Part shown: positions 31,331 through 62,824 of the stretch, piece by piece | How the letters are laid out: each line of letters opens with the position of its first letter | Numbering within the stretch: position 1 is the stretch's first letter | Assembly: GCA_021234155.1 (NCBI GenBank) | Contig: JAJEKV010000026.1 | Span: 18,047,556-18,111,555, forward strand | Direction: 5' to 3' | Origin: Isoetes taiwanensis | Taxonomy: Eukaryota > Streptophyta > Lycopodiopsida > Isoetales > Isoetaceae | Length of the DNA: 64,000 nucleotides | Position numbers and translations under genes: made by a program | The notes under the pieces: model-generated | Databases searched by the model: none | Told to the model about the DNA's origin: nothing | The model's input: the letters and a program-made list of their open reading frames with translations, nothing else

Positions 31331-31705
<375 letters not shown>

Positions 31706-41153: not shown

Positions 41154-41158
<5 letters not shown>

Positions 41159-44132
41159 CTTCCTTTAATAGCTTTATGTGTCTTTCCAGCAATTCTGTAA
41201 ACGTAAAGTTCCTAATTGTTTTCAACCATTGGTGCTTTTTTCCTTTAAACTTTAACTTATTACAACCTTTTGTTTTTAATATTTCTCTTTTGTTTATCTC
41301 TTTAACCTAATTTTTTCGTCCCAACTAAACCTTTGCGACCAATTGGCTTACTGTCTCCGATCTTGTTAGATTAGGGTTTGTTTCTCTCTGTCACGATTCC
41401 TCCTGATGGACGGAGACGTCTTCTTACGCCCTTGGCCGGCATGTACTGGCAAGATTGCGGTTATGAACTGAATGGCTGGATCTGTGTTTGCAAAAGCAGG
41501 ATAGGGTTCTTCTGTGAGTATTTATACTTCCTTAGGCTAACATGGATGTCCCCTTCTCCGTGTGATGGCGCTGCTATTGCATTAGGCCCTTGATTGCTTC
41601 TGTTTATGGGAAGGAAGAAAGGCGGCTTGAACAAAGCCACCATTCTAAGATTACAGGAAGAGAAGAAGATGGCTGAGAAAAGAAAGAATCTATTTGACTT
41701 TCATAAGCCTGCTAAGGCTAGAAATATCCCTGGTGCCAATGCTTTACCTGTGCTGGAAGGAGAACGCAGCTCTATCTTAGCTGCACAGATGTCGATTCCC
41801 ATAGCTTTGGATCCTGTGGCTAGTGCTCAAATGAGGATTAATTCTGATGTTCTGCTAAACTCTGAAGCCCATGCTGTTCCTGATGGTGCCCTAATGAATT
41901 CGTCTAGGCCAGCTGTCGAACCATCTCAGGTTTTATTTTTTTATTTGTTTTCTGGATTTGTCTTCTTTATGCCTACTTATCCTTTGCTCTGTTCTTTAAT
42001 TCTCTCCTGTAATGGCCTTCTTGTTTAAAGTAGTCTAGTTGTTTTTAATTTCTTTCTCTCTAATTTTTTTACGTTGCTTGACTCAGTTTGTTCTTCTTTG
42101 GGCAAGTTACATTTTACTTTTTGTGCCTCTTTCTCACTTGTTTCTTGTGTTCTCTTTGTTATTTATGTATATTTCCTTAGATTTGTACTGATGTCCTTGG
42201 TTTAGTTCTAGTTAATTCCCTTATTCCCCTTGTCCACCCTTAATTCCCTTATTCCCCTTGTGTCATATCTTTTTTCTGTAACTCCAATTGTCTTTAACCT
42301 TGAGTGAACTTCTAGGCTCCTGATCTTATTAACTCAGTTATTCCTTTTCAATGTGAAATAGCTTAGACTCCCATGTTGTTTGGTGCTCCTACTACATTGT
42401 CTTCTTAGTTCATGATTGATCTAATTTAATTCTTATGCTATCCACATTTGTATTTGCTTTGTCTTTGGTTATTGATGAGAGTCAAGTTATGTTTTCTAAT
42501 GTCTTCAAATTCTTGTGATCTCTGCTATTTCTTTGTTCCTTGTTTCCATTTGGTTTCTGTGAATTTCCTGCTACAAGCTCTATTGCTTTTCCCTAGTTTA
42601 ATGGTGGTTTTAATATTATACATCTCTTGACCTTAGTTCCTCTTTCTGTTTCCCTTTTTAGCTTATTTTCTATGACTGATCTCCTAAGCTCCCGGTATTC
42701 TACTGTAGCTATGGTTGTATATTTCTGTAGAGTAGCTTATTTGCCCAGCTTCTTTTATGCTCCTACTTTATTACCTTCTTTATTCTTATATGATCTAAGT
42801 TTGCCAATCTGCTGTCCACTCTCTGATAGGATTGTTGTCTCTCTTGTGATAACATATACTGTTCTTGTGTAGGTGATTATGCCAGGTTGTGTCCACTGTT
42901 TTCTACTCTATATTCTGATTCCTTTTTTGTTGTTGCATGCTTACATATGATACACTTAATATTTACTGGCCTTATTGTTTGTTAGTGATTATTAACTAAG
43001 TGATTGTGGTGAAAGGCGATAAGCTGGTTTTGGTCCATAGCTTACCTGCTACCCGGTTATTGGCAACCATTCTAATGCTTGTCTAATTTCTTGTGGTGCA
43101 GGTAACCGGACTGAACCCTATTTTGATGCGACTTTAAGTTTTTTTACAAAGCGTTTTCCGCTGAACTTAAATATGGGTGATATTCTACAAACTTGTGTTG
43201 AAGGAAAACTTTTCTTTACAAAGCTTTTTCTGCTGAATTTAAATATGGGTGATTTTCCACAAACTTGTGTTGTTGGATAACTCTTCTATATATCCGGTTT
43301 ATGTTTTACTTTGGATATGACATATCTTTACTTCTATGTTGTTACTCTATTCTGTTTTGAAGTTAGTAAACTTGGTTTGATAATTTTTCCTTTATCTTCA
43401 TTGTCTAATTTTGTTTCTCTCCTTTATTATTTTTGAATTATATTGCCTTATTATGTTTATCTAGTCTCTTGTTTTTTATTTTTACTTTGTTCTCTTTCCT
43501 CTTTTCACAACTTTTTGATTTATTTCCTTTTTTCCATTTGTGTTAAAAGCTTTTTGCTCTTGACCCGTTTTATACTTGTTTGTATTCCTGATTCTTGTAC
43601 TTGGCTTTTCCCTTATTTCTTTCAAGTTTCCTGTCTTGTACCTTCACATCTTCTATGATTTATTAGTTTTATTTTTTGGTAACTACTTCTATGTTTTCCC
43701 CTCCATTTGATGTATAGTTTTCTTTCAGTATTTTTGTTTTGTTCTACCTTGTTTCCTTCCCTTTCTCTACCAATTTAGTTTAAGTTTATTCTCTTTTCCT
43801 TGCGCTCTTAGGCTCTTAAATCTTTCTGTTGTGCTTTGCATTCATAGGTCTTCTTTAACTTGCTTTTTCCTTTTTTATCCTTATTTGGTTCTTATGTTAA
43901 CATTTCTTTATGGTTGTTTTTTTCTGATTTTCTATACTTATTTATCCCTCTTATGGCTAGTTCAACTTCTATCCTTTTTCTACTCTTTTGTTTGATCCTT
44001 TTCAAGGCCTGGATAGGTTTTAAGCACCTTAATATATCTAGGGTTGCTCTTGTATAGGCTTTTCATTCCAAATGGAATGTCTGGTCTTAAAAGTCTGAGT
44101 ATCTAGTCTTAGACTTGTTTATTTCAGACTGG
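41154..44132 (+). repeat. PLE pseudo-LTR, copy 1 (5' region, exon 1, most of intron 1)
   Basis: Near-identical to 52781-53903 plus 60814-62824 (a few substitutions per hundred bases where I compared). Differences include a 26-base tandem duplication around TTAATTCCCTTATTCCCCTT (42210-42262) and the loss of about 36 bases near 43118 relative to copy 2. The similarity ends at TTTATTTCAGACTGG (44132), 100 bases before the intron 1 acceptor. Confidence 0.9.
41606..41929 (+). CDS. PLE ORF exon 1, unit 1
   Basis: Encodes 108 residues starting MGRKKGGLNKATILRLQEEK, a basic, helix-prone N-terminus, then DFHKPAKARNIPGANALPVL. I know no domain for it. It ends at CCATCTCAG followed by a GT donor, and exon 2 continues in phase 0. 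I chose the Met at 41606 because the frame upstream in unit 1 is closed by a TGA (41591). In unit 2 that codon is TGG and the frame stays open back to 53041, so a longer N-terminus is possible in intact copies. Four or five residues differ between units (for example KRKNLF/KRNNLF and ERSS/EGSS). Confidence 0.65.
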
Positions 44133-44233
44133 GGGTTTTTTTATGTTATTCCAACTTTCAAGTTTAACTTGAAACCTTGATTAGGGTCGTGGTGCTTCCT
44201 ATTTTCATTTGGTTAATATGTTATTCTGTGCAG
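41930..44233 (+). other. PLE intron 1 (about 2.3 kb)
   Basis: Begins GTTTTATTTT after CCATCTCAG and ends TTATTCTGTGCAG. It is T-rich throughout, as plant introns are, and has no conserved open frame. Splicing joins Gln of exon 1 to NVQVDKIDLD of exon 2 in phase. Its presence in both units means the element's genomic copies keep introns, unlike most retrotransposons copied from mRNA. Confidence 0.65.
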
Positions 44234-44647
44234 AATGTTCAGGTGGATAAAATTGACTTGGATTTGAACAATTCTTGGATAAAGGAGTTGATTGCCCTAA
44301 ACTATGATCAATGTGGTATCTCGAGTCACAATTTTGCTGTTCAAACTCTGATAGCATGCATCAAAAACAAGGATGTACATGAATTCATCACTTTTAAAGA
44401 AAGTTGCCTGGTTGATAAGAATAAATCTCCTGTGAGTTACCTTGGCTTTAATGGCTGGTTTTCTGCTTTCCAAAAGATGAAATGTGCAAATTACAAGCTG
44501 AAGTTTTGTAAAACTCTTATTTCTAAAATTAATGGGGACATGGAGGCTCTTCTTTTTGCTAGGACTTGCATGGAAGATGATTTAGGAAAAAAGTTTTTGA
44601 AACTTACTCATTTGGAGAGTGTACATGATTTGAAGTTTCTAACGTGA
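44234..44647 (+). CDS. PLE ORF exon 2, unit 1
   Basis: Starts NVQVDKIDLDLNNSWIKELI right after the intron 1 acceptor and stays open for 137 codons to a TGA at 44645. It contains FNGWFSAFQKMKCANYKLKF and EALLFARTCMEDDLGKKFLK. No domain is recognised; it lies in the long N-terminal extension before the RT. A poly(A)-tailed insertion starts a few bases after the stop. The true exon end could be a weak donor at AAC|GTGAAAG just before it. Confidence 0.55.
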   Translation, partial: NVQVDKIDLDLNNSWIKELIALNYDQCGISSHNFAVQTLIACIKNKDVHEFITFKESCLVDKNKSPVSYLGFNGWFSAFQKMKCANYKLKFCKTLISKINGDMEALLFARTCMEDDLGKKFLKLTHLESVHDLKFLT

Positions 44648-44654
44648 AAGCTTT

Positions 44655-45113
44655 GGGCGGGAGACTATAGCTTTCTTATTGCTGCTGAGCACCATGTAGG
44701 TAGTTGTGGCCTATGTTGGTTGATGGAGGGGCAACATGGAGAGCGATTTGACCACCCTCTATAGGGGTAGGCTTGCAGGGTGTATTGCATAGTTGGAAGA
44801 CAGAGTTCTCTCTTATAGTACAGCAATGCAGATGGTATCCCAAGCCAAGTTAACGCGAGGAATGATGATTGCTCCCATAGGACCTCCAACTACTAGCATC
44901 TTTCGGTGGTGGAGCTACAGATGGACACAATTACAGTTATTAGAGGGATCTCGAGCCGTACTTTCATTGGAAAAGAAGGTTGTAATCTTTAGACCTCAAT
45001 CTTGGAGTAAGATGGTGATGTGATAATTCTGCCTATCAGGCCTATTGTGGAGCCTATGTATTTACTTATTATTATCAATAAAAATATAAATATCTTGCCT
45101 ACAAAAAAAAAAA
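44655..45113 (+). mobile_element. Poly(A)-tailed retroposon inserted in PLE unit 1
   Basis: The PLE coding sequence is interrupted here by about 460 unrelated bases that end with TATCAATAAAAATATAAATA, then TCTTGCCTAC and 13 A. The polyadenylation-signal-like AATAAA and A-tail mark a copied RNA on the plus strand. Its last 25 bases match the end of the minus-strand retroposon at 62832-64000, so both may use the same reverse transcription machinery. I could not define a clear target duplication. Confidence 0.7.
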
Positions 45114-45115
45114 AA

Positions 45116-45715
45116 GTTTTCATTCTGATGATGTTGTGCAATTCTTATAGGGTAGTTTTATGAAAAAGAGCCTGCTTTCTGAGGGATCTTCTTGATGAAG
45201 TCTTTGATGGTAATATTGACACGGGCAGTGAGGATGCAGATGACCATGATGAGGTTCCCACCTTGACTCTTCAAAATTCCTTTAGGTTTCGCATTATCCC
45301 AGAACAGAATGTTGAGTGTTATGCAGCAGCATGGGGCCATGCAATTTGGAAAAGTCAAAACTTCGGTGCTATTGCACCTATTAATGTTGACACGTGGAAA
45401 GCTTTGACATGTATTACTGATGATGAGATCAGGTCTGCCACTGCAAAGGCTGCAAAACTGGACAAATATCTCACTAAAGCAGAAGTTTCTTTACCTTTCA
45501 AATCAGACTTCTTTGGTCAACCTTGCCTTCACAATACTTCTCTTCATGTTAGTCAGAAAGGCAATATGGCGTATTCCAATGACAAAAGAGATGCTTTCTT
45601 CTTAAAGAAACTTTGGAGGACATATTACCCTTTCCTTACTTGTGCTTGTGAAAAAGATGCTAAGAAAAATGATAAAATTGATTGCAGGAGTGGGATTGTA
45701 TGGATAGATCAGGCC
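45116..45715 (+). CDS. PLE ORF exon 3, unit 1 (truncated by insertion)
   Basis: The frame LLDEVFDGNIDTGSEDADDH is open from about 45188, after a CTTATAG acceptor-like site at 45150. It continues through RFRIIPEQNVECYAAAWGHA, ADDEI-like acidic stretches and TYYPFLTCACEKDAKKNDKI to GIVWIDQ, where PLE sequence ends at the left edge of the 4-kb insertion. No known domain is seen. Cys residues near the end (LTCACEKD; DCRSG) could bind metal, but this is only a guess. It shares the coding frame style of the flanking exons and is assigned to the PLE by position. Confidence 0.5.
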
Positions 45716-47833
45716 CCGGGGGGTTCACCTCTATAAAAAGGGCATATGGCATGTGCGTGCATCAAGTCAGGAGAAACCCCTATGTATACAGCTGACCCTC
45801 CATAGAAACCTTTAAATGTAATTATCCCATGGGTAAAGAATCATACCCGATTCCATACTTTTACACCAAGTCTAAGCACTTCTTGCCCTACCCTTAACCT
45901 TATTTTTACGTCCATTATTCATTCATGTATCCTACCCTTTCAAATATTTACATCCAAAAACAATCCAAAATGTTACATCCAATGATCAATTAGGGTTCTT
46001 CCTCACGGCCATTTTAGTTCAATGGTCACTCCAAAAAAATAAGAAAAAGAAATATGTCTGGAATACATAGGGAAGTATATATTTTATATATTTTAATTAA
46101 ATCGATTTTAGGATGACATCATAACAAAATTGATTATTGAATAATGACTTTAAATTAATTATTGGGTAAATAAACGCATCCCTTAAGAACGCAAAGGCAC
46201 TTAGTTCACTTAGCTCACTTGACATTTCACTTTAAAAATGGACCCCCTCATGGCGTGGGATCAAAGATATCAAAATATTAACACTTAAAAAAGAAACAAT
46301 CCACAATCTTAAGCTCAATGATCAATATAGAATACAGAGATCACGGTAATTACGCAATAGTTTAGGCAGCACTTTCAAAAGACGGTTGCCATTATTGCAT
46401 CACAAACTAATATCTTTCTGTTTCAAAAGTTTCTTTCACCATAGCAGGTTGCAACAAAACAAAACAGCTGGTTCAAGCATCAAGGTGTAGTACAAATCAC
46501 AAAGCAAAAGAAGCTTCATCAAGTACAAAGCAAAAGAAGGTTCATCGAGGCGTGGTACAAATCCAAGCTTTTCTTTCTCCTGCACCTCAACATCTAGAAA
46601 TCTAAATGTCCAATTCAATAGACCATTTTAAATACTGAATTGAAATTTGTAGGACCACGATGGTATACCAAGATTCCCAACCAGGATAGCAATACATTAA
46701 ACACGTGTCTGTAAATGCAAATCAGTTTGAAAACAACAAAAGAATCCTCAAAACATCATGATAAACTAGATTTTCATTTAATATTTTAGATCAAATTTTC
46801 TAAAGTGATTCTGTACCTCTTATTATGGTACAGACTGATTTCTGATATGTAAGTTTCCTTTGCAAAGACTTGAAAGGCTCAGCGGGCAAGTAGAGCTACA
46901 ATATGTTCCTAGCATATATGGTAATCATTGTCTTGCATGGCTTGGTAGTTCTCTTAACCATCGTATCTAACATTGAAATGGATGGGAAGGTTAGCCGCGC
47001 ATACGTTGAAATCAGAGCATTCCGTGGAAACACTTGAGGCTGAAGCACAATTCTAAAATGCAGCTCATCAAAGAAAATTTGAAAGACCCTGTTCTACATG
47101 CAAACTGACATTCTGAATCTTGTGCATGCTGCATGTCCGCTTTGATGTCTTAATCGTCGCTTAAAGATCGCTTAAAGATGTTGGAAGGAATAGAGTGCAT
47201 ATCTCAACTGTTTCTCCTGAGCATATCCTGCAAATCATAAAGCTAGAACATCAGACATACTTCTTTGAGCTGGTCGTGCAATGTTAATGTACTTACCATA
47301 ATCTTCCATGAAGTCACGTATACACTGGGCATTTGCTAAAACAGCTGAAATGGCAACTTTACTTTGCCCTTTTCAATGTGAGCAGAGATCATAGTATTCT
47401 ATCATACTACATTCATGTCACGCATCAGCTTAAAATCTGCTAAGGCTTCGTTAAGCATGTCACGACATAAACAAACTTCAATCATGTCATTCCAAGAGAC
47501 GCATTCTTTTCAGGCATACGTCAGAACATATCAAAAGTTTCATCAATTTGTCTTTGACGTGTAACCGCAGTCGCTCAGGTATAATCTGAAACAGTATCCT
47601 CATAGATGATAACTACCCATATTGGGAATAAGCAGCAAGCATTATTACTCCAAAGCAATTTGATTTATCAACTTCTCAAACATTTGTTAAGCCTCCCGGA
47701 AAGCTTCAACTATACATGTGCACAGAAGGTTTCTTAAATATGTATCCATACGTCAGCCCTTTTGGATAAAATAATCATGAATATACTCACCTTTTGAAAG
47801 ATTTTTTGCATGAATAATCATGAATATACTCAC

Positions 47834-47982
47834 CTCCATGATTGCCAATAACAGCACACGCTCCCAACCATAAACAATCACCCTCGTTTAAGCATACCTC
47901 AACAGCCAATCTGTCATATGGATTGTCAGCATCAACAAATCCATAGTTCAGCAACAATCTTGAATTTGGCTGTGGACCACAC
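47834..47982 (-). pseudogene. SET-domain protein, next exon (NYGFVD motif)
   Basis: On the minus strand the exon begins after TTACACAG and encodes CGPQPNSRLLLNYGFVDADN, then PYDRLAVEVCLNEGDC. It contains the NYGF motif that forms part of the S-adenosylmethionine and lysine channel in SET enzymes. It ends GGAG|GTGAGT. The donor region is duplicated in tandem (ATAATCATGAATATACTCACC at about 47774 and again at about 47815). I cannot find convincing upstream SET exons or the C-terminal substrate-binding domain, so this is a captured or truncated fragment. The residues after LNEGD are unlike the family. Confidence 0.75.
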
Positions 47983-48166
47983 CTGTGTAAATTACAAATT
48001 ATAAGCAGACAAAATAGCAACTTATGTAACTAGCAAACCATTCATTTAGAAGTATGCATGCCCAATATATACAACATTGATGCAGCAAATGGTACAACAT
48101 TGATTGATACAACATTGACTGCACATTATTCATTACACAGTCTGAAGATCATGAACAAATACTCAC

Positions 48167-48367
48167 CACACAAGAATTGGATCCCCAGCTTCATATGGAC
48201 GATCTACTTGCAACTGGACTTCATCCCCCACGGCCTTCAACATTGCTTTGCAGCTACTTTTATATGCCAGTAATGGTGGTCCCAAAGGCACCAACACAAA
48301 GCGCCTTGGTAGACTGACGCCCTGAACATATTTCCCGTCATGAAGATTGTAGGTCACGGCCATTACC
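48167..48367 (-). pseudogene. SET-domain protein exon (Rubisco LSMT family), fragment
   Basis: On the minus strand, after an acceptor ATACAG, the exon encodes VMAVTYNLHDGKYVQG, LVPLGPPLLAYKSSCKAMLK, then VQLQVDRPYEAGDPILVW, and ends at TG|GTGAGT. The second half matches the C-terminal SET region of plant Rubisco large-subunit methyltransferase-like proteins, which methylate lysines of plastid proteins. It joins the next exon in correct phase to give the continuous motif VWCGPQPNS. Confidence 0.75.
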
Positions 48368-48561
48368 CTGTATTTCCATATTTAACAAATAGTACAAAGG
48401 TTCTGCAACCTCCTAAATTTTTCGACAGACAGAAATATTTGGACACGACTTAGACTTATACTAAGGTCATTTGAGTGCGCAAGTGCAAATGAACCACACA
48501 TGACAGAACTGCCACAAAAGCCTGTTTGAAGATCTTAAAACTAAAAGCTTCTGAGGGAATG

Positions 48562-48873
48562 TCAAAAGGATATTGCTACAAGAAAATGCCCCAACTCAGT
48601 TTTCAACATGGAAACATCAGAAACGTGATGATCTAGAGACATAAGCCATACTATGTCTAGCTCCTGATACTCACGTTTAATACCCTCCAATCTCTCTAGT
48701 CTTAACTGGACTTCCATGAAAGTACTCATCAAGCTCTTCATGCGACCAGACGGTAAAAGCCCTTCCAAGATATTTGCAAAGAAGAGGTACTCCACATCAA
48801 ATAAAGAAAAAATTTTAAGCTTCAAAGCCAGATGAAGATAGCTATCGATCATGGAGGTTGCCATAACTTGCAT
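48562..48873 (-). other. Open frame upstream of the SET exons, unidentified
   Basis: A 103-codon minus-strand frame contains FDVEYLFFANILEGLLPSGR and MEVQLRLERLEGIKREYQEL. It is likely a former exon of the same captured gene, as it lies in the right orientation 195 bases before the first SET exon, but I cannot assign it to a known part of the family. Confidence 0.3.
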
Positions 48874-49030
48874 TATAAATAGGAAAAGGTGCCAGCATGT
48901 TAGTTTTTTGTCTATGCAATAATTGAATGCTCATATCTACACCATCGCAACAAATACAATGAGATTAGCAGATCCAATATTATGCAAAAGCTTAGATCAA
49001 GAGCAAAAGGGATGGCTACCCCTGCCAGAA

Positions 49031-49105
49031 TGGCTCTTCAATGCTCTAACCTAGCTTCTCTAAGAAGGTAAAAAATGCTCTAACCTAGCTTCTCATAGAT
49101 GTTCT
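49031..49105. repeat. Short tandem duplication of about 42 bases
   Basis: ATGCTCTAACCTAGCTTCTC occurs twice within 75 bases, inside the 4-kb insertion. Confidence 0.7.
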
Positions 49106-49699
49106 TAGATTAAAAGCAGGTTTGAATCCGATTGGGGAAGGCATGCATAGCCTTGGGGGGCAAAAATTGCAATCGACCATTAGACCCGAGTTAAATGATG
49201 CCCATCAAAACCCACGCAAAAGATCAACCTGAAATAGATATTGCCAACAACCGAGGTAATCTCAAGAATGCACGCATGCAAAAATTTCCACAGCTTGATT
49301 TTTAATGCAAACTAGAGCGAAAATGCCCACAAGCGGCGGATGTGTTGCATGACTAAACTCGGTGGTAGATTTTTTATGTGGCGGGGATGAAAAACTTCAA
49401 AACATTACCTCCAAAACACCAAATCCCTTGGCGTTTTTATGGCAGCTTGTTTTAAGGCAAGCAGTTCAAAGCCCTCAAAATAACAAGTAATACTATTATA
49501 GTACATCGAGTCTTAGCGAAGTCTTTGGGGCAGCGAAGAAATCCATCCGGGTTCAAAGCCTAAGTGGAAAATGCATCCCGGACCGTACATCATCCGGCGC
49601 CAAAGCGTATGAAGCGACCCAGCGGTATCACGTACTTTTTTTTTCAAAGAAACCCAGATTCTCTGAAATACATGTGAACCCCCTCCCAGAGATCGGTGA

Positions 49700-50232
49700 T
49701 TACGGTTTATTTTGAACAATCTTGATTTGGTATTTCCTGGAGCTTCTCCTATGGCAAAGATGGTTGGCCTTACCAAAATGTTACATATTGTTCTTAAATC
49801 AGCTGTCCTTGCATACCTCTCATACCTTGAGGTTAGAAGGGTTTTGATCAACATGACTCTTTTGTACGCAGAGGCACCTGACACTAATCTTAAAGCTGCT
49901 TTTGGTAACACAAAACTAGCTGATATTGCCGAGAAAACTCTTAGGCCTATGGCTTTTAGAATGGAACAAATGGCTAAGAAAAAAACGCCTCTTCATAAGA
50001 TTGAAAGTTCCAACAGCAACATCTCGTCGAACTTTTTTTCTCCTAAGCGACCTCCTAGGGTCACTTTGGATCCTAGACTTTCTGGTGGCAGCAATTTGGC
50101 TGTAATTAAGCAGGCAAAACAGGGTGGCAGTCTTCTTACTAATGATGAGTACTCGGTGACTAAGGGAGGTAACAAAGTTATTAACTTGGATGAGATGGAT
50201 GCTACCAAACTGAATTATAGGGATATCACAAG
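49700..50232 (+). CDS. PLE ORF exon before the RT exon, unit 1
   Basis: Open frame LNNLDLVFPGASPMAKMVGL runs through VLAYLSYLEVRRVLINMTLL and AFRMEQMAKKKTPLHKIESS to a basic, Ser/Pro-rich linker (FFSPKRPPRVTLDPRLSGG) and MDATKLNYRDIT. It ends at CACAAG|GTTAGT. Splicing to an AG at 50584 keeps the frame into the RT exon (R|SVIKDCNGK). The stronger-looking acceptor at 50564 would shift the frame. The basic linker before the RT is reminiscent of nucleic-acid-binding segments in PLE N-termini. The 5' end of this exon is lost in the 4-kb insertion junction. Confidence 0.55.
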
Positions 50233-50584
50233 GTTAGTTTTTACCTCCTATTTCCTTCGCTACTTTCCTTTTATTGTTATATTCTTTGAGCTTATTATTC
50301 TTTCCGTTTATTGTAATATTCTTTGTGCTTGTTTATCTTTTCTCTTATTACTGTATTTCTCCATTACTCTCCTTTGTCCTCCAAGGGTTTTTATGAAAAG
50401 AGTTTTCCCTTGGAGTGATATAATTGATTCCAAAGAACTTTTATTCCTATGGATAATTGGTTTATCCTTTTTCTACCTTAGTTGGCTTCTGGGCCCCTAT
50501 GGTTCCCTTTTGTTTAAGTTTTTTCCTCTCTTTTTCGTATTCTGAAATCCAGTTAATTTTTTAGGATCTGAACCAAATCTCAAG

Positions 50585-52671: not shown

Positions 52672-52708
52672 GGGTAGGGTCCCTGTGTTGCAACAGGGCC
52701 CTGCCCTC
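52672..52708 (+). other. Hairpin in the PLE 3' untranslated region
   Basis: GTAGGGTCCCTGT, loop GTTGCA, then ACAGGGCCCTGCC: a 10-11 bp stem with a single bulge, 55 bases after the RT stop. It could be a recognition structure for the element's own RT or a transcript-end structure. Confidence 0.55.
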
Positions 52709-52780
52709 TCTGTTGCAATATTTCTTGTCTTTTTTACTGTTAGGGACCTCCCAAGCTGAGGTAGGAGGAAGGGTTTTTTT

Positions 52781-53903
52781 ATGTTCTTCCTTTAATAGGT
52801 TTATGTGTCTTTCCAGCAATTCTGTAAACGTAAAGTCCCTAATTGTTTTCAACCATTGGTGCTTTTGGGCTCTTTTCCTTTAAGCTTTAACTTATTACAA
52901 CCTTTTGTTTTTAATATTTCTCTTTTGTTTATCTGTTTAACCTAATTTTTTCGTCCCAACTAAACCTTTGCGACCAGTTGGCTTATTGTCTCCGATCTTG
53001 TTAGATTAGGGTTTGTTTCTCTCTGTCACGATTCATCCTGATGGACGGAGACGTCTTCTTACGCCCTTGGGCCGCCATGTACTGGCAAGATTGTGGTTAT
53101 GAACTGAATGGCTGGATCTGTGTTTGCAAAAGCAGGATAGGGTTCTTCTGTGAGTATTTATACTTCCTTAGGCTAACATGGATGTCCCCTTCTCCGTGTG
53201 ATGGCGCTGCTATTGCATTAGACCCTTGGTTGCTTCTGTTTATGGGAAGGAAGAAAGGTGGCTTGAACAAAGCCACCATTCTAAGATTACAAGAAGAGAA
53301 GAAGATGGCTGAGAAAAGAAATAATCTATTTGACTTTCATAAGCCTGCTAAGGCTAGAAATATCCCTGGTGCCAATGCTTTACCTGTGCTGGAAGGAGAA
53401 GGCAGCTCTATCTTAGCTGCGCAGATGTCGATTCCCATAGCTTTGGATCCTGTGGTTAGTGCTCAAATGAGGATTAATTCTGATGTTCTGCTAAACTCTG
53501 AAGCCCCTGCTGTTCCTGATGGTGCCCTAATGAATTCGTCTAGGCCAGCTGTCGAACCATCTCAGGTTTTATTTTTTTATTTGTTTTCTGGATTTGTCTT
53601 CTTTATGCCTACTTATCCTTTGCTCTGTTCTTTAATTCTCTCCTGTAATGGCCTTCTTGTTTAAAGTAGTCTAGTTGTTTTTAGGTGTTCTTCTCTCTAA
53701 TTTTTTCTGTTAGCCAGCTCTAGATTTGTTCTTCTTTGGGCAAGTTACATTTTACTTTTTGTGCCTCTTTCTCACTTGTTTCTTGTGTTCTCTTTGTTAT
53801 TTATGTATATTTCCTTAGATTTGTACTGATGTCCTTGGTTTAGTTCTAGTTAATTCCCTTATTCCCCTTGTCCACACCTCTGATGTGTCATATCTTTTTG
53901 GGT
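52781..53903 (+). repeat. PLE unit 2, first part of pseudo-LTR copy 2
   Basis: Matches 41154-42280 of unit 1 nearly base for base and starts directly after the unit 1 3' end (GGTTTTTTT|ATGTTCTTCC). It is interrupted at TCATATCTTTTT by a 6.9-kb insertion and resumes at 60814 with TTTCTGTAACTCC. Confidence 0.9.
53041..53565 (+). CDS. PLE ORF exon 1, unit 2 (open version)
   Basis: The frame is open from an ATG at 53041 (MDGDVFLRPWAAMYWQDCGY) through the second Met at 53242 (MGRKKGGLNKATIL) to the CATCTCAG|GT donor. In unit 1 the same frame is closed by TGA where this copy has TGG (DPWLLLF). Either Met could be used; 53242 gives a basic start like many retroelement ORFs, and the upstream part may be leader. 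The exon cannot yield an RT here because unit 2 ends within intron 1. Confidence 0.6.
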
Positions 53904-53936
53904 TGCCCCTAGGGGGGCAATCCCTTGTTTATGTGG

Positions 53937-53990
53937 GTTTTTGGCATATTCATGGTATATGCTAGCATATACCTAGAATATGCCAAAAAC
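53937..53990. repeat. 54-bp near-perfect palindrome
   Basis: Centred on GCTAGC at 53961-53966. 25 of 27 base pairs match, with arms GTTTTTGGCATATTC and GAATATGCCAAAAAC. Directly left of it lies a second smaller inverted repeat, GGGTTGCCCC/GGGGCAATCCC (53900-53924). Both sit at the left edge of the 6.9-kb insertion. Confidence 0.9.
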
Positions 53991-56006
53991 TGCTAAAAAC
54001 CTGTTGTAAGCTGTAAATGCTAGGTCATCCCCATTTGCCCGGTAATTTCTTTGTGTGCATCTGCGGCTAACCTAAGTTTGGATGCATGGAGGCCATGCGG
54101 GAATGATGCAACTCCTACGATCCGGCATTTGCCTCGTTTCCCAACAGACCGAGTCAGGGTTTTTTCTTGCTTCATTTTCTGCTAACTATTTTCCAGGAGG
54201 TTTGATCGGCGCCAGTTAGCTGTGGTTTCCATGGCTAGCTTGTTTTGTCTCTCCCCTCACGAAGGCTATGGTGGCATTTCCTCTTTGGATAAGTAAGAAT
54301 TCAAGCATCACTATTTTAGTGTTTAACCTAAGAAGGATCATTTAAATGCGGACCTCTAAAGATCGTAGGCTGTCGGGGAGTTGTCGGATCTATTTGCAAC
54401 ATGCCCAAATAGATACCACGGCCCACAATCCTGGATAATTTGGGACGAGAGAACAAAATTTTTTAAAAGCTTTTCGACCTTAGTTTATGACCAGGAGGAA
54501 GAATGGTATTCAATCAAGTCCACGGTTCTTCGAAATCACGAGCTTTTAAGATATTACGTTCCTGTTCTTCAAGATAAATTTTGGTAGTTTTGAGGACCTT
54601 GGTGATTATGGCAGCATCTTTTGGATGAAGATTATGGCAGCATCTTTTGGATAAACCACGGTACACTTTTTCTTGCTAGCTCGAATGTTTTTCTTATATT
54701 CCTTGCATTTGTGACACTTTTAAGGCCCTTATAGAAGGGATCTCTTTGTCAACCCGGACTTGGATATTTGAGGCCTCCATTTTTCTTCTATGTTTGGTTC
54801 TCAACCTTATTTACTTTGTCATTCCACAGCCATGATTGGCAAACCGCATCCAGATCTTATGGATCATTTTGGCATGATTTGTTTTGATGCATTTACGGAA
54901 TATTATATCTGTAGTTTCTAGGCGACCGCCGATGCTTGAAAGATGTTGCGGTTGTCTTGCAAAAATGCATGGAGGTCGTTCGCGGATCTCATTTCTAACT
55001 TTGTAGCAGATGGTTGGGATGGATCTGCGAAACATCAAGATATAAGAAAAAGTAGTTTGTTGTAGTGCAAAAGCACGGAGGACTTTGCGGTGCAGCTCTT
55101 ATTTGATGAGTGCTAGTGTGCCTTACAAATCAGGGAATAAGGCAACAAGGATAGCGATGGGCTGCATGAAGCTTGACAAGAGGAAGAGGCAGTTGTCTCT
55201 AGCTTGTGTATCATATACCAATTTGTAAATAGTGCTTGTGTTATTGTGCTTCTTTGGCGGCGCTGATAGTGTAGTTAAGTAAGTTTCGTTTCCTGTCAAT
55301 TCAAGAGTCATGTATAGATCGAAACATAGACATAGCATACTGGATATTTGTAGTTCACTTAATGATCTGAGGGATTGGAAAAATTGAGATATGGAGTTAT
55401 TATGCCACTAACTGGCTTAAGATGAGGACCATGGGGATTGTGGAAAAATGATAATTTGTCTTTGAGCGTGGGCAAAGGGATGTGGAGAATTAGGGATAGC
55501 CTTTTTATAATAAGCAAATGAGCATTGCAGGTTTTGTTGGGAGAGAAAGCCAAACTATGTTTGGGGGAAAGCCAAATTACGGCATGCCGGAGAGATAAAG
55601 CAACAAATTATGGCAGTGAATGGACAACATTGTTATGTGTTGGTAGCCCATTTAAGATGTCTAGAGGTTAAGAGGCATGCTAGGTGATTAAGCAATTTGG
55701 TGAAAAAAGATGTGTTAGGAAGGAATTTACAAGATATACCAACGTAATGCTATGTGGGATGTTTGTTATGGTTGAGAGGTGGGATTGATGCCGTTCTGGG
55801 ATAATGAAATATAAAGAAGGGGAAGTGAAAAAGTGTTTTCATCAATGTCGGCCAAAATCTTATGCTTTATAGGATGTTAACGTACCATATAGACCTAACT
55901 ATTCCTAAGGATTTTGTATTTAAGTGTCTAGCTGCATTATGTTTGTAAGCTCAATTTTGTCCAATCATAACATATGAATATTTGTTTCTTTTTGTACACT
56001 GGCAGA
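53991..56006. other. Left part of the 6.9-kb insertion, no gene recognised
   Basis: A 68-codon plus-strand frame at 54381-54587 (containing YHGPQSWIIWDERTKFFKSF) is the only coding-like piece, and I cannot place it. GATTATGGCAGCATCTTTTGGAT is tandemly doubled at about 54606-54652. The rest is AT-rich and featureless to me. Confidence 0.4.
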
Positions 56007-57640
56007 TGCATGGAGTTAATGAGAATACGCAAGCATCCCACTTCTTCATCACCGCTCTGCTACAGGTTTTCCAATCCCTATTAAATTCATGCATTCAAGA
56101 AGCGCAACATATAATTTGCTATTGCTCTGAGACTTTTGAACTCTTGTGTGCAACTCTGGAATTGCCTGATATGCTTAAGGACACAATTAAAGATTCACCA
56201 AGTAACAGGCATGTTGCATACCCCAAGAGAAGGTTGCAGGTTTCATCTTCGCTGCTTAGTCGATCTTATCAGGGTTATGTTGTCCCTCCAAGCCCAGGCA
56301 TCATAAAGGGTGTTTGTCAAAATATTCAACTGGAAAATAATAATACCGTGGCTAATGGCTGTCTTCCAATGTCGGAAGCACCTTCAGAGACTGATAAAAA
56401 ACATGTAGGGCTATCAAGGACAAAATTTACTAGGAAATTGAGAGTTCTTTGCCAGAAAAATAATTGTACATGCTTCAAATATGAGGATCTTGAAAAAGCA
56501 ACATGTAAGTTTTCTTTAGGTACTACTCTCTCTTATCCTAAGCGCGTATGTCTTTAGGACCTAGCTCACTATATGAACATGGTTTTATGTTGCCGGAAAA
56601 ATCTTGTTGGAACCCGGAGGATCTGATAAAGTGTATGGGGGTATATTAAATGATGGGAAGGTAGTGGCTGTTAAATGCTTGAATGAAGGTGCTTGGAGCG
56701 AGCGAAGAGCTCGGCCAGTAGAAATTCTCAATTACTTTAAGCCACCCTAATATTGTGAATTTACTTGGTTCTTGTGTGGATGAAAGAAGCCGATTCTAGT
56801 GTCTGACTTGTCCTCTAATGGGAACCTGGAAGAGAATCTTTATGGTAAGAATTCTTGAAAAGCATTCATTGCATGCTCCACATTGCAACATCGTTTTACT
56901 TCATATTTTGCGGGGGAAAGATCTCAAATTCGGTGTTGCCTTGGGAAGCAAGATTTAGAATTGCGGTGGATCTTTGCCAAAATTTCTGCTATTTGCATGA
57001 CTCTTGTCCACGACCAATTATTCATAGAGTTGTGAAATCGACAAATATTCTTTTTTCAGCAGATTTTCAGGCTCAGGTTGGTAAATATAATCGAGAAATG
57101 CTAAAGATGAACACCACTGATGATGCTAGTGCATTCAGATATCTGACTTTAGACTTGCAAAGTGGGCTCCATCAAATTCATCCCATATTACATGCCCATA
57201 TGTTGTTGGAACTCTAGGGTATAAACACTAATAACCTTTATCTACAAAATGACATCTCACACATACTAATTCATTTGTTTACAATCTCAAATACAGGTAC
57301 CTGAATATTTCATGTTTAGGAAAATAAATGAGAAAACGTACGTATACTCATTTGGTGTAGTGTTGCTGCAGCTTATAACTAGAAGACAACCAATCGATGT
57401 GTCTAAGCCTGAAGGACAAGAGAATTTAGTGGCATGGGTAGGGAAGATTTGCAAATATGTTTCCAGAAGCTGACCCTTCCTAATGTTGGAGTTTCAGAGT
57501 AGACCATTGCTTGAGGCATAAAATATGGGGGAGCTTATTGATCCTCAACTAAAGAGCCAATACAATGGCATTGAAATGAAAAACATGACCGATTCTGCGG
57601 CCGATTGTTTGTTTTTGCCCGACCATCTCGATTTGGTTCT
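56007..57640 (+). pseudogene. Receptor-like cytoplasmic kinase pseudogene (RLCK VI-like)
   Basis: An opening block (56007-56505) ends in NCTCFKYEDLEKATCKFS, the usual lead-in to plant receptor-like kinase domains. Kinase pieces follow in shifting frames: GILNDGKVVAVKCLNEG (VAVK lysine, about 56650), HPNIVNLLGSCVDE (about 56742), SNGNLEENLYG, WEARFRIAVDLCQNFCYLHD, RPIIHRVVKSTNILFSADFQ (57010), ISDFRLAKWAPSNSSHIT (57138), VVGTLGY, and after an intron ending ATACAG, VPEYFMFRKINEKTYVYSFG and RRQPIDVSKPEGQENLVAW. HRD reads HRV and DFG reads DFR, so catalysis would fail even without the frameshifts. Motif wording is closest to the USP-type RLCK VI kinases. Introns are retained, so it came as genomic DNA, not from mRNA. 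Confidence 0.85.
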
Positions 57641-57785
57641 AGAATAAGCAGGGTAGGCTTACTAAATGAAACAAATTATGCGTTATCAAACAACCTTTTA
57701 TAAAATTCCATCTAAATTGTGAAAATTCACCAAAACATTGTTTTTAGGTGAAATTGTTGGTTGGAGAACAAAATGGCTTGCAATG
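57641..57785. other. Unassigned spacer
   Basis: AT-rich; no feature is recognised between the kinase pseudogene and the duplicated GC-rich block. Confidence 0.3.
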
Positions 57786-57789
57786 GCCT

Positions 57790-58510
57790 GCAACAAAATG
57801 CAGATCGATCCGACGGATCGCGATTCTCGAGCCAGACGAGCATGCAAGAGTTGCATGCGTTGCCTGCGATGCATTGCATGCATTTCGACCTCTCATCGGT
57901 TAGGGGATCGCTATTTCTTCTGCATTAGCCTTGACTTCTCATGGCTTTCTCTTAAGCCCGGCGGTTTTGAGTTATGTTCTATGCTCTCATGCGGAGGGGG
58001 GCTTCCTCTTGCATGGGTTGACCTTCGTGGCATTTCCTATCATTCTTGTTTCTCTTGACCTGACCTTTCTGGCGTATCCCTTCTGGCGTTTCTTATCGTT
58101 CTCGGTTCTCTTCTACCTTGGCTGCGTTGACCTTTCTGGCGCATCCCTTCTGGCGTTTCCTATCTTTCTCGTTATCTCTTCCTATCCTTCTCGTCTAAGC
58201 TTCTACCTCGGCATTCCTCCACTATGGGGCAATTCTTGAGCCTTCATCTCGGATCGGCCGGAAGTTCTCTTCTTCGAGGCGTTGTTGTGTCATGCGAGTC
58301 GCGGCTCGAATCTTGGTCGATCCGGCGGATCGCGATTCTCGAGCGGGACGAACATCCCACAAGAGTTGCATCGTTGCCTGCATGCATTGCATGCATTTGA
58401 ACCTCTCATCGGTTAGGGGATCGCTATTTCTTCACGCATTAAGCCTTGACTTCTCGCCGGCGCTTTCTCTTCGCCAAGCAGATGTTCGAGGTTATGTTCT
58501 ATGCTCTCCC
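57790..58510. repeat. Direct repeat of about 190 bases flanking a CTGGCG/TTCT minisatellite
   Basis: 57797-57990 and 58317-58510 share GGATCGCGATTCTCGAG, AAGAGTTGCAT, GCATTGCATGCATTT, ACCTCTCATCGGTTAGGGGA, TCGCTATTTCTTC and TTATGTTCTATGCTCTC in the same order. Between them, 58050-58200 repeats CCTTTCTGGCGTATCCCTTC-type units. The spacing is like the two ends of a very short retroelement, but the repeats lack TG/CA termini. Confidence 0.7.
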
Positions 58511-58559
58511 TCCCTCCCTCCCCCCTTAAGTATTTTGTTTATATATGTTGTTAGCGTGG

Positions 58560-58965
58560 CCGCGCTTTAATCGACCCTCGCTTTTGAGGTTTTTGTTCTT
58601 CTCTATTGTGTTTGTGGTCTTATGCAGTGCGAGGCGTTGCCGCGGCGTTGGTTTCTTTTGGGCGTGGGTTTTGGGAAGTTTAGCGTAGCCCGTTGTCTAA
58701 GCCCTTTGCCTAGGGCCTTGCTCGCTAGGGTTTTCCTCGAAAACCGAAGGGCTGGATTTTTAATCCGTGATAAATACCAGGCGGTACACTAGTAAACATC
58801 TATGATATATTTTTGTATTTTGGGGTCCGGGTGTTATGACCGGATATTCCCTGTATTTTTTTGTTTTGGGTAGCTTGGAGTATCAGACTACCCACTCTCT
58901 ACCATTGTAATTACAACTGGATGAATAGAAAAAGCCCCATCCATTCGAAAGAGTTGTGTCATGCA
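58560..58965 (+). other. Possible retroelement 3' end
   Basis: GGGTTTTCCTCGAAAACC, GGATTTTTAATCC and GATAAATACC (58730-58785) follow the order of the 3' untranslated motif of the two minus-strand LINEs, here on the plus strand and much diverged. A palindromic GTAGCTTGGAGTATCAGACTAC follows at 58871. No coding sequence is attached. Confidence 0.3.
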
Positions 58966-60813
58966 GTGGCGCAATCGAGAATTTGGTGAATCGTTCATTC
59001 GGGTCATATCTCGATGAAATTGGGAATCCGACATCAGAGACATTTGGCATTAGCCATGGTAGGAGTTGATGATGATTTAGCTTCAATTAGCACGGGCCAG
59101 CAGTCGTGAGCACTGAAGAATACCTTGGAGGAAGGTTTTTCCAGCTGTTCCCCTAGCCCCGGAATAACATGTTTATCAAATCCCTATGCCTGGGAACCTG
59201 TGCTATACGACACCATTGTTTTGTATACATAGTTCAATGTACATGATTCGAGTTAAATTCTGCCTTTCTTTGGAAATTGTGATAAATTAGTTGGAGGAGC
59301 ACTTCCGGTTGAAAAGGCTAAGTATCTGAGGATAATCATGGAAATGGGGAGACCAATTTGGCTTCAAAGGCAAAAGCCTTGATAAGAAATGGCATTTTCC
59401 TATTCTGGTATCGTTGGATTAAGGTTTCTTTCTTGAACTGAAACTTAATTGTTAGGAAGAATGCATGGTATTTAAGATGGTTCAAATGTGTCTTTTGTCT
59501 TCTGTTTAATGTGCATCCTTTTTAGCCTCACCGTAGCTTGTGCAATAGCAAGGTTAGACTGCTTTCTTACTTCTAGATCTTAATATGAGTTTAAGGGTCT
59601 CTATTGCGTTCATTTTAAACCATTGGATATTATCTTATATATCCCCTCTACGAAATTTACACATCAAATTTGGGTTGAATTTTTTTGCCAAAGAGTACTA
59701 TAATGGTTGTCACATAGTGGGGCATTGCTCAAGGGTACTATAATGGTTGTCAATGGTTGTCATGTGTGTCAAGGGTACATTGCCTAGTCGTCAACGTCAA
59801 CGGGGAACTCCTGCATTAGAGATTTCAATCTCTCAATTGTACAAGATCTATATAGTCGTCATAGCCATTCGATGACGATTATACATATGTTCATATACTC
59901 GACTTGATATTGTATGTAGCATGGTGTGGTATGTGACAGTCAGGTCATGTGCAAGTAGTATTTGGTTGCTTTGGCTTGGCTTGCTGAGGGGGTATGTGGG
60001 GTATGGGATAAAGCCTTGAAAAGGTTGGGGCCCATTATATAACGATTTTCATGAAGGATCCGCCCTCTTGGTGTGTTGCTTAGCACTAAGAGATTATTGT
60101 GTAACATTTGGCATCACAACCAAGGTTCAATTAGTGGCAGCCACCACCATGTAACTAACTAACTATAACTTTCCCACCATGTTGTGGATCATGTATGTTA
60201 CTACAATTTCAACTTGCACCATCTGCTATATGCCATTTGTGATCCTAATAATTTGGTTCCAATTCAAACATGTATGGAATATATCCAAATACCAAGTGAA
60301 GATCGTAGTTCCACACTATATAGAAATGCTCCATGTCGAATGTTTATTTCCTTATCTAATACATCCACGTGATGTGACTCGTTTAATGGTGCTATAGATG
60401 AAGACCTATAGCTTAAAATATTGCGAGTACTGGGAAGTGATGACATTGCGAGGTTTGGAGTTAGGCTATGCATCAATGTTTCATTCCTCTACAAAACCTG
60501 CTCCTCAGATGTTTGAAGCTCTTCGTGACAAAAAATTGATCAGAGGTCTTCAAGCAGTTCTCTCATTTCTATGCTAACAAAACATGTATTTCCATTCTCT
60601 GCTCTATTACACTTGTCCTTATGCTTCTGCAATACTTCTTCCATGCCGAGCACCAAATATTTCTTCAGGCCAATTCCAATAAAGTCATGGTATCAAGTAT
60701 TCTATTGTCTAGAAGTAGCAATTTGAATTGATTGTCAAAACATGACTTTGGACTATGATTTAAGCCACATCACCCTCCGGCCATGGAGGGCAACCCGCCG
60801 TGCACAGCACCTT
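58966..60813. other. Right part of the 6.9-kb insertion, no gene recognised
   Basis: Short frames around 60179-60520 read coding-like (NNLVPIQTCMEYIQIPSEDR; LRVLGSDDIARFGVRLCINV) but shift frame and match no family I know. AGGGTACTATAATGGTTGTCA is repeated at about 59690-59755. A small hairpin (CCCTCC/GGAGGG) sits at 60772-60790, near the right edge of the insertion. Confidence 0.35.
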
Positions 60814-62824
60814 GTTTCTGTAACTCCAATTGTCTTTAACCTTGAGTGAACTTCTAGGCTCCTGATCTTATTAACTCAGTTATTCCTTTTCGCTGTGAAA
60901 TAGCTTAGACTCCCATGTTGTTTGGTGCTCCTACTACATTGTCTTCTTAGTTCATGATTGATCTAATTTAATTCTTATGCTATCCACATTTGTATTTGCT
61001 TTGTCTTTGGTTATTGATGAGAGTCAAGTTATGTTTTCTAATGTCTTCAAATTCTTGTGATCTCTGCTATTTCTTTGTTCCTTGTTTCCACTTGGTTTCT
61101 GTGAATTTCCTGCTACAAGCTCTATTGCTTTTCCCTAGTTTAATGGTGGTTTTAATATTATACATCTCTTGACCTTAGTTCCTCTTTCTGTTTCCCTTTT
61201 TAGCTTATTTTCTATGACTGATCTCCTAAGCTCCCGGTATTCTACTGTAGCTATGGTTGTATATTTCTGTAGAGTAGCTTATTTTCCCAGCTTCTTTTAT
61301 GCTCCTACTTCATTACCTTCTTTATTCTTATATGATCTAAGTTTGCCAGTCTGCTGTCCACTCTCTGATAGGATTGTTGTCTCTCTTGTGATAACATATA
61401 CTGTTCTTGTGTAGGTGATTATGCCAGGTTGTGTCCATTGTTTTCTACTCTATATTCTGATTCCTTTTTTGTTGCTGCATGCTTACATATGATACACTTA
61501 ATATTTACTGGCCTTATTGTTTGTTAGTGGTTATTAACTAAGTGATTGTGGTGAAAGGCGATAAGCTGGTTTTGGTCCATAGCTTACCTGCTACCCGGTT
61601 ATTGGCAACCATTCTAATGCTTGTCTAATTTCTTGTGGTGCAGGTAACCGGACTGAACCCTCCATCTGTTTACTTGGTGTTCTTGGGAGCAAAGATTTTG
61701 ATGCGACTTTAAGTTTCTTTACAAAGCGTTTTCTGCTGAACTTAAATATGGGTGATATTCTACAAACTTGTGTTGAAGGAAAACTTTTCTTTACAAAGCT
61801 TTTTCTGCTGAATTTAAATATGGGTGATTTTCCACAAACTTGTGTTGTTGGATAACTCTTCTATATATCCGGTTTATGTTTTACTTTGGATATGACATAT
61901 CTTTACTTCTATGTTGTTACTCTATTCTGTTTTGAAGTTAGTAAACTTGGTTTAATAATTTTCCCTTTATCTTCATTGTCTATTTATTTTTTTTTATTTT
62001 TTTTTGAAGGATGAGATTAAGTAATATTAATATAGAGTAAGTACAAGAAGAGCGATACTAGGGTGCCCCTGCCCAAACATGGGCGAGCACCCACATATTT
62101 CCCTTTATCTTCATTGTCTAATTTTGTTTCTCTCCTTTATTATTTTTGAATTATATTGCCTTATCATGTTTATCTAGTCTCTTGTTTTTTATTTTTACTT
62201 TGTTCTCTTTCCTCTTTTCACAACTTTTTGATTTATTTCCGTTTTTCCATTTGTCTTAAAAGCTTTTTGTTCTTGACCCGTTTTATACTTGTTTGTATTC
62301 CTGATTCTTGTACTTGGCTTTTCCCTTATTTCTTTCAAGTTTCCTTGTCTTGTACCTTCACATCTATGATTTATTAGTTTTATTTTTTGGTAACTACTTC
62401 TATGTTTTCCCCTCCATTTGATGTATAGTTTTCTTTCAGTATTTTTGTTTTGTTCTACCTTGTTTCCTTCCCTCTCTCTACCAATTTAGTTTAAGTTTAT
62501 TCTCTTTTCCTTGCGCTCTTAGGCTCTTAAATCTTTCTGTTCTGCTTTGCATTCATAAGTCTTCTTTAACTTGCTTTTTCCTTTTTTATCCTTATTTGGT
62601 TCTTGTGTTAACATTTCTTTATGGTTGTTTTTTACTGATTTTCTATACTGGTTCGACTTCTATCCTTTTTCTACTCTTTTGTTTGATCCTTTTCAAGGCC
62701 TGGATAGGTTTTAAGCACCTTAATCTATCTAGGGTTGCTCTTGTATAGGCTTTTCATTCCAAATGGGATGTCTGGTCTTAAAAGTCTGAGTATCTAGTCT
62801 TAGACTTGTTTATTTCAGACTGGT
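60814..62824 (+). repeat. PLE unit 2, second part of pseudo-LTR copy 2 (intron 1 sequence)
   Basis: Continues unit 1 positions 42280-44132 with few changes, apart from about 36 extra bases near 61661 and a 115-base retroposon at 61983. It ends at TTATTTCAGACTGG, exactly the last base shared with unit 1 upstream of the exon 2 acceptor, and is followed by a retroposon poly(A) end. The remainder of unit 2 is not in the window. Confidence 0.9.
61983..62097 (-). mobile_element. 115-bp poly(A) retroposon with 23-bp target duplication
   Basis: The segment is absent from unit 1. It is flanked by identical 23-base direct repeats (61960-61982 and 62098-62120, TTTCCCTTTATCTTCATTGT plus CTA). On the minus strand it ends in an A-rich tail. 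This is a textbook LINE-mobilised insertion: either a heavily 5'-truncated LINE or a short SINE. The body contains CCCATGTTTGGGCAGGGGCA on the minus strand. Confidence 0.9.

Follow-up and report, generated by a model that had tools for sequence, protein, structure and literature searches.

An intron-retaining retroelement family with partial-tandem repeats and A/T-tract boundaries in the lycophyte Isoetes taiwanensis

A 64,000-nt stretch of the Isoetes taiwanensis genome (contig JAJEKV010000026.1, positions 18,047,556 to 18,111,555 of the forward strand; hereafter the window) carries, at 41154-62823, one degenerate copy of a retroelement whose relatives are found throughout the assembly, adding a large retroelement family to this lycophyte genome. 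As the first-pass annotation of this DNA had recognised, the element combines a reverse transcriptase (RT), found here to be divergent, with retained introns and partial-tandem repeats in the style of Penelope-like elements (PLEs), in a land plant. To this we add that the copies are bounded by A/T tracts, a mechanistic clue that the annotation had not contained. Judged from its genomic copies, the family is probably a divergent PLE-like retroelement, whose unspliced RNA would be primed internally by pairing of a U-tract with A-tract DNA.

Repeat layout, gene structure and copy number

At the window locus, a unit beginning at 41154 is followed directly by a partial second copy that extends to 62823. 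The left copy (41154-52780) closes with T7 at 52774-52780, and the second opens at 52781 with ATGTTCTTCC. Three pairs of segments align between the copies: 41147-42240 with 52774-53879 (96.3% identity), 42269-43119 with 60811-61661 (98.8%) and 43385-44132 with 62098-62823 (95.1%), the second copy being interrupted by a 6.9-kb insert (53880-60810). Both copies hold exon 1 and the larger part of intron 1, as had been described. The further claim that an almost identical unit starts at the base after 52780 is borne out for the junction and not for a full second unit, since what follows is a terminal repeat that stops within intron 1, its last base (62823) being equivalent to position 44132. Identical boundaries at other loci exclude chance as the source of this head-to-tail layout. 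The features of the element and its flanks are given below in window coordinates; loci and contigs elsewhere in the assembly carry L and C numbers.

40589-40734, plus strand: left-flank sequence that is a divergent copy of the intronic RNA block (55.8 bits, E 1.3e-9)
40890-41109, plus strand: left flank, itself a repeat (at least 40 matches; 40 of 51 candidates scored)
41110-41153, plus strand: T44 run, left boundary, read as target A/T tract together with the T7 of the element
41154-44132, plus strand: left terminal direct repeat (pseudo-long terminal repeat, pseudo-LTR) with 5' untranslated region (UTR), exon 1 and the larger part of intron 1; L026, L027 and L029 are arranged alike
41606-41929, plus strand: exon 1, MGRKKGGLNKATI...PSQ; start block in L026, L027 and L029, and in frames of L025 and L028
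41930-44233, plus strand: intron 1, GT...AG
42996-43119, plus strand: conserved 125-nt RNA structure within intron 1 (10 sequences, 33 pairs)
44131-44142, plus strand: motif B, GGGGG-TTTTTTT, to which the right end of the second copy maps
44234-44639, plus strand: exon 2, piece 1 (right edge approximate)
44640-45113, plus strand: retroposon-like insert in exon 2 (edges approximate), absent from L025
45114-45714, plus strand: exon 2, piece 2
45715-49703, no strand assigned: unclassified 4-kb insert in exon 2, absent from L025, L026, L027 and L029
49704-50236, plus strand: exon 2, piece 3
50237-50584, plus strand: intron 2
50585-52619, plus strand: exon 3, reverse transcriptase, with in-frame stops at 51039, 51210 and 51468
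52672-52719, plus strand: 3' UTR pseudoknot of two covarying helices
52747-52768, plus strand: conserved 3'-terminal hairpin before the T-tract (one-sided changes only)
52774-52780, plus strand: internal junction T7 (motif A)
52781-62823, plus strand: right pseudo-LTR, the partial second copy, with an insert inside
53880-60810, no strand assigned: unclassified 6.9-kb insert within the second copy
62832-62854, plus strand: T23 run, right boundary, after TTAAAAAG

Comparison with L025-L029 gives family members three exons, encoding about 108, 510 and 677 amino acids. That the gene has several exons had been proposed from the window alone; their number is three, since two inserts split exon 2 of this copy. 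The proposed splice sites at 41929/44234 keep the frame on inspection (CAG/NVQ), and the start of the RT exon at 50585 follows a predicted in-frame junction (AAG/GTTAGT at 50237, ATCTCAAG/GTC before 50585) that recurs in the relatives. The exons are in frame in the window, L026, L027 and L029, and the intron-2 sites are common to the copies. In the latter three loci exon 2 is a single open frame, and the frame holding exon 3 is open over 684 codons. Retention of introns in the genomic copies is thereby supported. The window copy itself is dead, having three in-frame stops in its RT exon and two inserts in exon 2. The smaller insert is closed by an A13 run (45103-45115), and its tail end resembles the repeat to the right of T23 (93% over 29 nt). 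Within the 6.9-kb insert of the second copy, receptor-kinase-like fragments were noticed by eye at 55949-57217.

We searched the genome assembly (1,658,258,908 bases in 1110 contigs) for further units, as the first-pass annotation had suggested. The window RT has at least 109 matches at at least 108 loci, the window included and one locus being in two pieces; this is a lower bound, as 108 of 3638 first-look candidates were scored. The same layout recurs in L026, L027 and L029, with terminal direct repeats of about 2.5-3 kb in the relatives, and L034-L025-L033 form a true multi-unit array. RTs at the other loci are 51-91% identical to that of the window, and 95 of the 109 matches listed, which are the best-scoring candidates, have open frames of at least 400 amino acids. 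A host gene was ruled out by the many dispersed copies.

Twenty RT exons (L005-L024) were fetched and, with L005 left out, 19 (L006-L024) were aligned over 712 columns; these were chosen for their open frames and so give no estimate of the intact fraction. The catalytic Asp columns D375, D518 and D519 are invariant in all 19. Pfam RVT_1 is matched by every member (best E 2.5e-6), although member 1 scores 23.2 bits, under the cut-off of 29.6. Purifying selection acts on the family in four of six pairs (NG86 dN/dS of 0.138, 0.074, 0.154 and 0.173; dS was saturated in the other two). The terminal repeats of L029 are 99.3% identical over 2260 columns and those of an element on C1049 are 99.9% identical over 689 nt, which marks both as recent copies, and the family has apparently been active recently. 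Outside the host, no relatives were found in viral contigs (searched with the RT profile, a PLE-type probe and the resident PLE described below) or in genome contigs (RT profile), in collections that are poor in plant DNA and so bear little on other plants.

T-runs at the boundaries and paralogous empty sites

The ends of the element were surveyed in 16 copies: the window, L025-L029 and ten others. The 3' end of the unit is a conserved hairpin followed by T6-8 in 25 of 28 distinct elements, namely in 18 of the 20 at L005-L024 (exceptions L009 and L021), the window, and nine of the ten surveyed (exception C1018:21.7), the two sets overlapping in three elements. All eight recovered left ends begin with T13-44 (window T44, L026 T20, L027 T25, L029 T21, C1049 T20, C1032 T13, C1044 T18, C962 T18), followed by the sequence found after the internal T7-8; within these same elements, the internal junctions have T7-8 against T13-44 outside. 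A T26 close to where the left end of C1018:26 would lie is left out of this count, as the letters following it mismatch the junction (6 of 24 differ). Right ends could be placed in nine of the 16 elements, and seven of these nine stop at motif B or no more than about 12 nt away; the stretch around the motif, 43976-44201, is also conserved. Six of the seven adjoin T11-35 (window T23 after TTAAAAAG, L027 T29, L029 T11, C1049 T12, C1032 T29, C1044 T35). Only four A/T runs of 11 or more occur in the entire window, and two of them are at this element.

The flanks of the window copy suggest where such runs come from. The DNA to the right of T23 is a dispersed, A-tailed repeat with 38 matches. Of 20 other copies, 18 have a T-run of 14-37 at that end, with no element in the 120 nt seen; the 20 are partly dependent, as flanks judged by eye are shared among L102/L108/L110, L105/L116 and L107/L109. 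A T-run beside this repeat is what the A-tail of a retroposon would give. That 25 of the 38 matches start at the first base of this flank is no argument, because the query begins there. Related tails follow T-runs at L032, and tails of another family do so at L009 and L031.

Three loci join the left and right flank repeats without an element, across T16 (L111), T24 (L117) and T16 (L118); these are paralogous empty sites. At the filled site of the window, TTTAAAG precedes the left run and TTAAAAAG the right run, a pair that looks like a short target duplication. The left-flank repeat recurs often on C1064 at about 3.03-3.05 Mb with a spacing of a few kb, as a local array (L111 lies at C1064:3027621-3027771).

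Some tracts appear to have received more than one insertion. The left flank of L026 (L026:996-1160) aligns at 86.7% with the right end of the C1044 element and is read as the right end of a family member, that is, a stacked insertion at the T-run. The left flank of L029 holds the exon 2 coding sequence of a distant relative (38% identity), and 40589-40734 in the window is probably the right repeat of an older relative at the same tract. Since the flanks of L026, L029 and the window hold relatives, relatives stack in three of the eight left flanks.

Affinities of the reverse transcriptase and conserved RNA structures

We compared the element's RT with one sequence or family from each of six classes. 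Profile scores from hhalign were highest for PLE (34.4), telomerase (TERT; 33.7) and a bacterial Cas-associated RT (30.0), and lower for Gypsy (23.6), long interspersed nuclear elements (LINEs; 19.8) and group II introns (17.0), with shuffle maxima of 19.8-25.6 (20 shuffles for each class). Local pairwise z scores were 4.37 for the Cas-associated RT, 4.25 for TERT, 1.9 for PLE, 1.0 for group II, 0.3 for Gypsy and 0.0 for LINE. A FastTree phylogeny on 349 poorly aligned columns separated the elements and a resident PLE from the rest with a local support of 0.886. The grouping with LINEs or group II introns that the first-pass annotation had named as contrary to its view is not seen in the profile scores. 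Its assignment of the RT to PLEs finds support in the top profile score and the weak tree, whereas the pairwise scores favour the Cas-associated RT and TERT. On these comparisons the RT appears PLE/TERT-like and unlike the LINE and Gypsy RTs tested; it is about equally near to PLEs and telomerase, and PLE membership is not proven.

Three other classes were rejected as candidates. An LTR retrotransposon is disfavoured as Pfam integrase, protease and RNase H are absent from the 19 copies of exon 3 and the four of exon 2 that were scanned, and the Gypsy RT, the LTR-type RT compared, scores at shuffle level. A LINE was set aside because the one host LINE tested is at shuffle level and the coding strand has T-runs rather than A-runs. 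The group II RT tested (profile score 17.0) does not match either.

The strings DKAGNN, GHIRTMD and FLNV had been put forward as PLE-specific. All are present, though as motifs similar to those of PLEs rather than specific to them. DKAxNN is invariant in 19 of 19 RT copies, and the resident PLE at L045 has DKNLG at a similar position (227 and 221). We take a DKG-type motif before the RT core to be a mark of PLEs. The resident PLE-type family (L045-L050), retrieved by a probe built from PLE motifs, shares with the element the same order of DK motif, KxHK, motif A, MG motif B, YIDD and FL[DN], whereas only about 69 residues align by profile. Its open reading frame (ORF) is about 686 amino acids long, with DKNLG and AMGS motifs. 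A TERT-like gene that includes a Telomerase_RBD domain is present in the host as well. Telomerase reverse transcriptase, for all the closeness of its profile score to that of PLE, is not mobile.

Other hallmarks of PLEs were found in part. The pseudo-LTR, partial-tandem structure is present in the family. No Pfam match to a GIY-YIG endonuclease was obtained in exon 3 (19 members), exon 2 (4 members) or the six frames of the window, exon 1 included. Among the host's 121 GIY-YIG matches, none lies, by eye, within 20 kb of the listed RT loci (the nearest is at about 25 kb), and the six loci inspected (L039-L044) are without an RT of this family; their GIY-YIG frames seem likely to belong to a mobile element other than a PLE. 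Pif1-helicase-like frames were seen by eye near GIY-YIG in L041, L042 and L044. Rfam returned no hammerhead at E up to 1 in window 40500-64000 or in L025-L029, and no other family above its cut-off in the same sequences. Exon 2 (4 members) has no Pfam match above cut-off (best E 0.11) and nothing below E 1 in a PDB profile search; the RT has no PDB profile match at E up to 10. An association with telomeres is not seen, the RT loci being spread inside long contigs; some 0.6 Mb separate the window from the end of its 18.7-Mb contig, and contig ends are not proven telomeres.

Published accounts of canonical PLEs (Penelope/Poseidon and PAc of Anolis; Penelope of Adineta vaga) describe a single RT gene, partial-tandem pseudo-LTRs with the coding start, intron-containing copies, an inferred internal cDNA start in the 5' region of the downstream copy, and AT-rich targets (PMC11167929, PMC3846280), all of which have counterparts here. 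With PLE protein in vitro, cDNA is described as beginning internally, near the ORF start (PMC11167929), and PLEs of Adineta vaga as having pseudo-LTRs that include the ORF start and as having moved intron-containing genes (PMC3846280). The Isoetes family differs in that its cDNA would start in intron 1 of the second repeat rather than in the early ORF, and in that its repeats span 2.5-3 kb with most of the intron rather than about 200 bp. It differs further in that neither GIY-YIG nor a hammerhead was found in the searches above, and in an N-terminal region of about 600 amino acids with no Pfam or PDB match. An RT without GIY-YIG is shared with the endonuclease-deficient PLEs (Athena/Coprina), which are likewise described in land plants, in Selaginella and conifers (PMC9033089, PMC12477314). 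These are described as lying largely at chromosome ends (PMC3846280), whereas the Isoetes family is dispersed inside long contigs at A/T tracts. Dryad in conifers is also in print (PMC9033089, PMC12477314). The suggestion that a land-plant version is little described may hold for this family, which does not appear in the titles and abstract beginnings searched, and does not hold for land-plant PLEs in general, which have already been reported (PMC9033089). The main text of the Isoetes genome paper has no 'penelope' (PMC8566536).

New RNA structures are also offered by the family. Across 19 sequences, the 3' UTR pseudoknot and terminal hairpin are paired in 96.0% of cells; 10 pairs and 24 cells are double-changed, against 3.6 and 6.4 in shuffles, and none of 500 shuffles reached these values. 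Sliding the partners lowers pairing of the pseudoknot to 35-54%. The connecting loop is short, and in this model both helices may not be complete at once. The 125-nt block of intron 1 is paired in 96.9% of cells (316/326), with 15 double-changed against 4.1 in shuffles (0/500); further pair types are at shuffle level (63/500), and its structure was predicted on the same alignment used for counting, which favours it. Scoring 40 of 157 candidates gave the L029 copy of this block at least 40 matches in the genome, 93-100% identical to it. One of these, near C1049:8.48 Mb (L010), is 98% identical to the block of L029 (L008 in the RT alignment), whereas the RTs of the two are only 73% identical. 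Intron 2 has a CCAAGGG...CCCTTGG hairpin at about 50390-50423, whose seven-base arms are kept in four of five copies and vary in L027. The pseudoknot and the 125-nt structure are likely recognition sites of a ribonucleoprotein. A pseudoknotted RNA is bound by R2Tg of the R2 elements (PMC12222951); the one host LINE compared here is at shuffle level.

Proposed internal priming and its alternatives

Work on PLEs has yet to explain how introns are retained and copies come to lie head to tail, and this family makes the question testable. We infer the RNA and priming steps from the genomic copies, as follows. RNA polymerase would start near the left repeat and read through the internal junction into the second repeat. 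Spliced mRNA would yield a protein of about 1,290 amino acids with an active RT, while retained introns and intact exons point to unspliced nuclear RNA as the template, and introns would persist for this reason. A nick or break would expose the A-strand of a genomic A/T tract which, to judge from the right ends, would pair with the motif B U-tract in intron 1 of the second repeat and prime cDNA synthesis. The left ends suggest that the cDNA would cross the internal junction to the U-tract at the start of the unit, where its A-rich 3' end would pair with the T-strand of the target. The product would be repeat, body and repeat between two T-runs, and at a tract already adjoining a relative, insertions would stack and look like tandems. 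Because both ends of typical copies correspond to a short U-tract in the sense RNA, pairing of U-tract and A-strand would set both ends; and since the right ends fall inside intron 1, there would be a direct reason why only unspliced RNA could be the template. A/T tracts, including the tails of other elements, would then serve as landing pads.

Several observations weigh against this model. The left end is unplaced in 8 of the 16 elements and the right end in 7, in the pieces fetched. The last copy of the L025 array ends in exon 2, away from motif B; the second repeat of L026 runs into another element, with its right end off motif B; and the right end on C962 has only T8. The empty sites are paralogous rather than allelic, two of the three are on contig C1064, and all three may descend from one composite repeat. 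Around six insertions, duplication of the flanking repeat itself was nowhere above shuffles. Finally, the RT is ambiguously placed among PLE, TERT and bacterial RTs, and an endonuclease of the family was searched for and none found.

A bolder reading, which we hold only tentatively and regard as rather unlikely, makes the family a separate retroelement branch between PLEs and telomerase. It would lack an endonuclease of its own and work on exposed A/T-tract ends, much as telomerase does on chromosome ends, with both ends of full copies again set by pairing of the intronic U-tract with the A-strand. The ultraconserved 125-nt intronic RNA would be a cis element resembling telomerase RNA or a ribozyme, and intron retention would be selected, not tolerated: the priming site being in intron 1, splicing would destroy the template, and introns would survive for that reason. 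The family may in either case bear on how telomerase priming relates to retroelement priming.

It is also conceivable, though on present evidence improbable, that a polyadenylated antisense RNA running leftward from motif B was inserted in trans by LINE-type target-primed reverse transcription, the left T-run then being its poly(A) tail. The T-run stands on the left, where such a tail belongs; introns would survive because the antisense RNA is unspliced; LINEs are very abundant in the host (150 of 33,044 candidates were scored and all 150 listed); and an A-tract that had received a LINE-type insertion would present a very similar picture. Yet the right end too adjoins a T-run (T11-35) in six of six elements with both flanks, and by eye no duplication of unique sequence is seen in five of six, the window having TTTAAAG / TTAAAAAG. 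The antisense RNA would moreover have to start exactly at motif B. The G-U pairs in both RNA structures (50 of 451 cells in the pseudoknot, 44 of 326 in the intronic block) favour the sense strand, because in an antisense reading only 86.0% of cells in the pseudoknot would pair, instead of 96.0%, and only 83.4% (272/326) in the block, instead of 96.9%.

Still less probable are true LTRs, which strand transfer would have formed before double-stranded cDNA was integrated. Such a process would leave terminal direct repeats like those seen here, which span 2.5-3 kb and reach 99% identity in two recent copies, but exons 2 and 3 are without integrase, protease or RNase H in Pfam, the Gypsy RT is at shuffle level, and no fixed-length duplication is seen. 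We consider it very unlikely that the T-runs were made by the element, through slippage or non-templated addition, rather than derived from the target. The element's own T6-8 at both ends could give slippage a starting point, the runs range in length from 13 to 44, and the T44 and T23 of the window exceed the T16-24 of the empty sites; against this, the empty sites already hold their runs between the same flanks, and 18 of the 20 right-flank repeat copies have such a run with no element in the 120 nt seen. Some lengthening by the element is nonetheless possible. Local DNA duplication by unequal crossing-over can be all but dismissed as the origin of the head-to-tail layout, for although multi-unit arrays do exist (L034-L025-L033), the internal junction and the end points are the same at separate loci whose flanks differ.

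Elsewhere in the window, a tandem array at 3988-22327 has a unit of about 1.1 kb, with copies about 73-82% alike. A LINE-type RT fragment at 37657-38199 belongs to a very abundant family (at least 150 matches among 33,044 candidates), and a plant-type 2Fe-2S ferredoxin-like frame, recognised by eye at 31331-31705, is a probable host gene.

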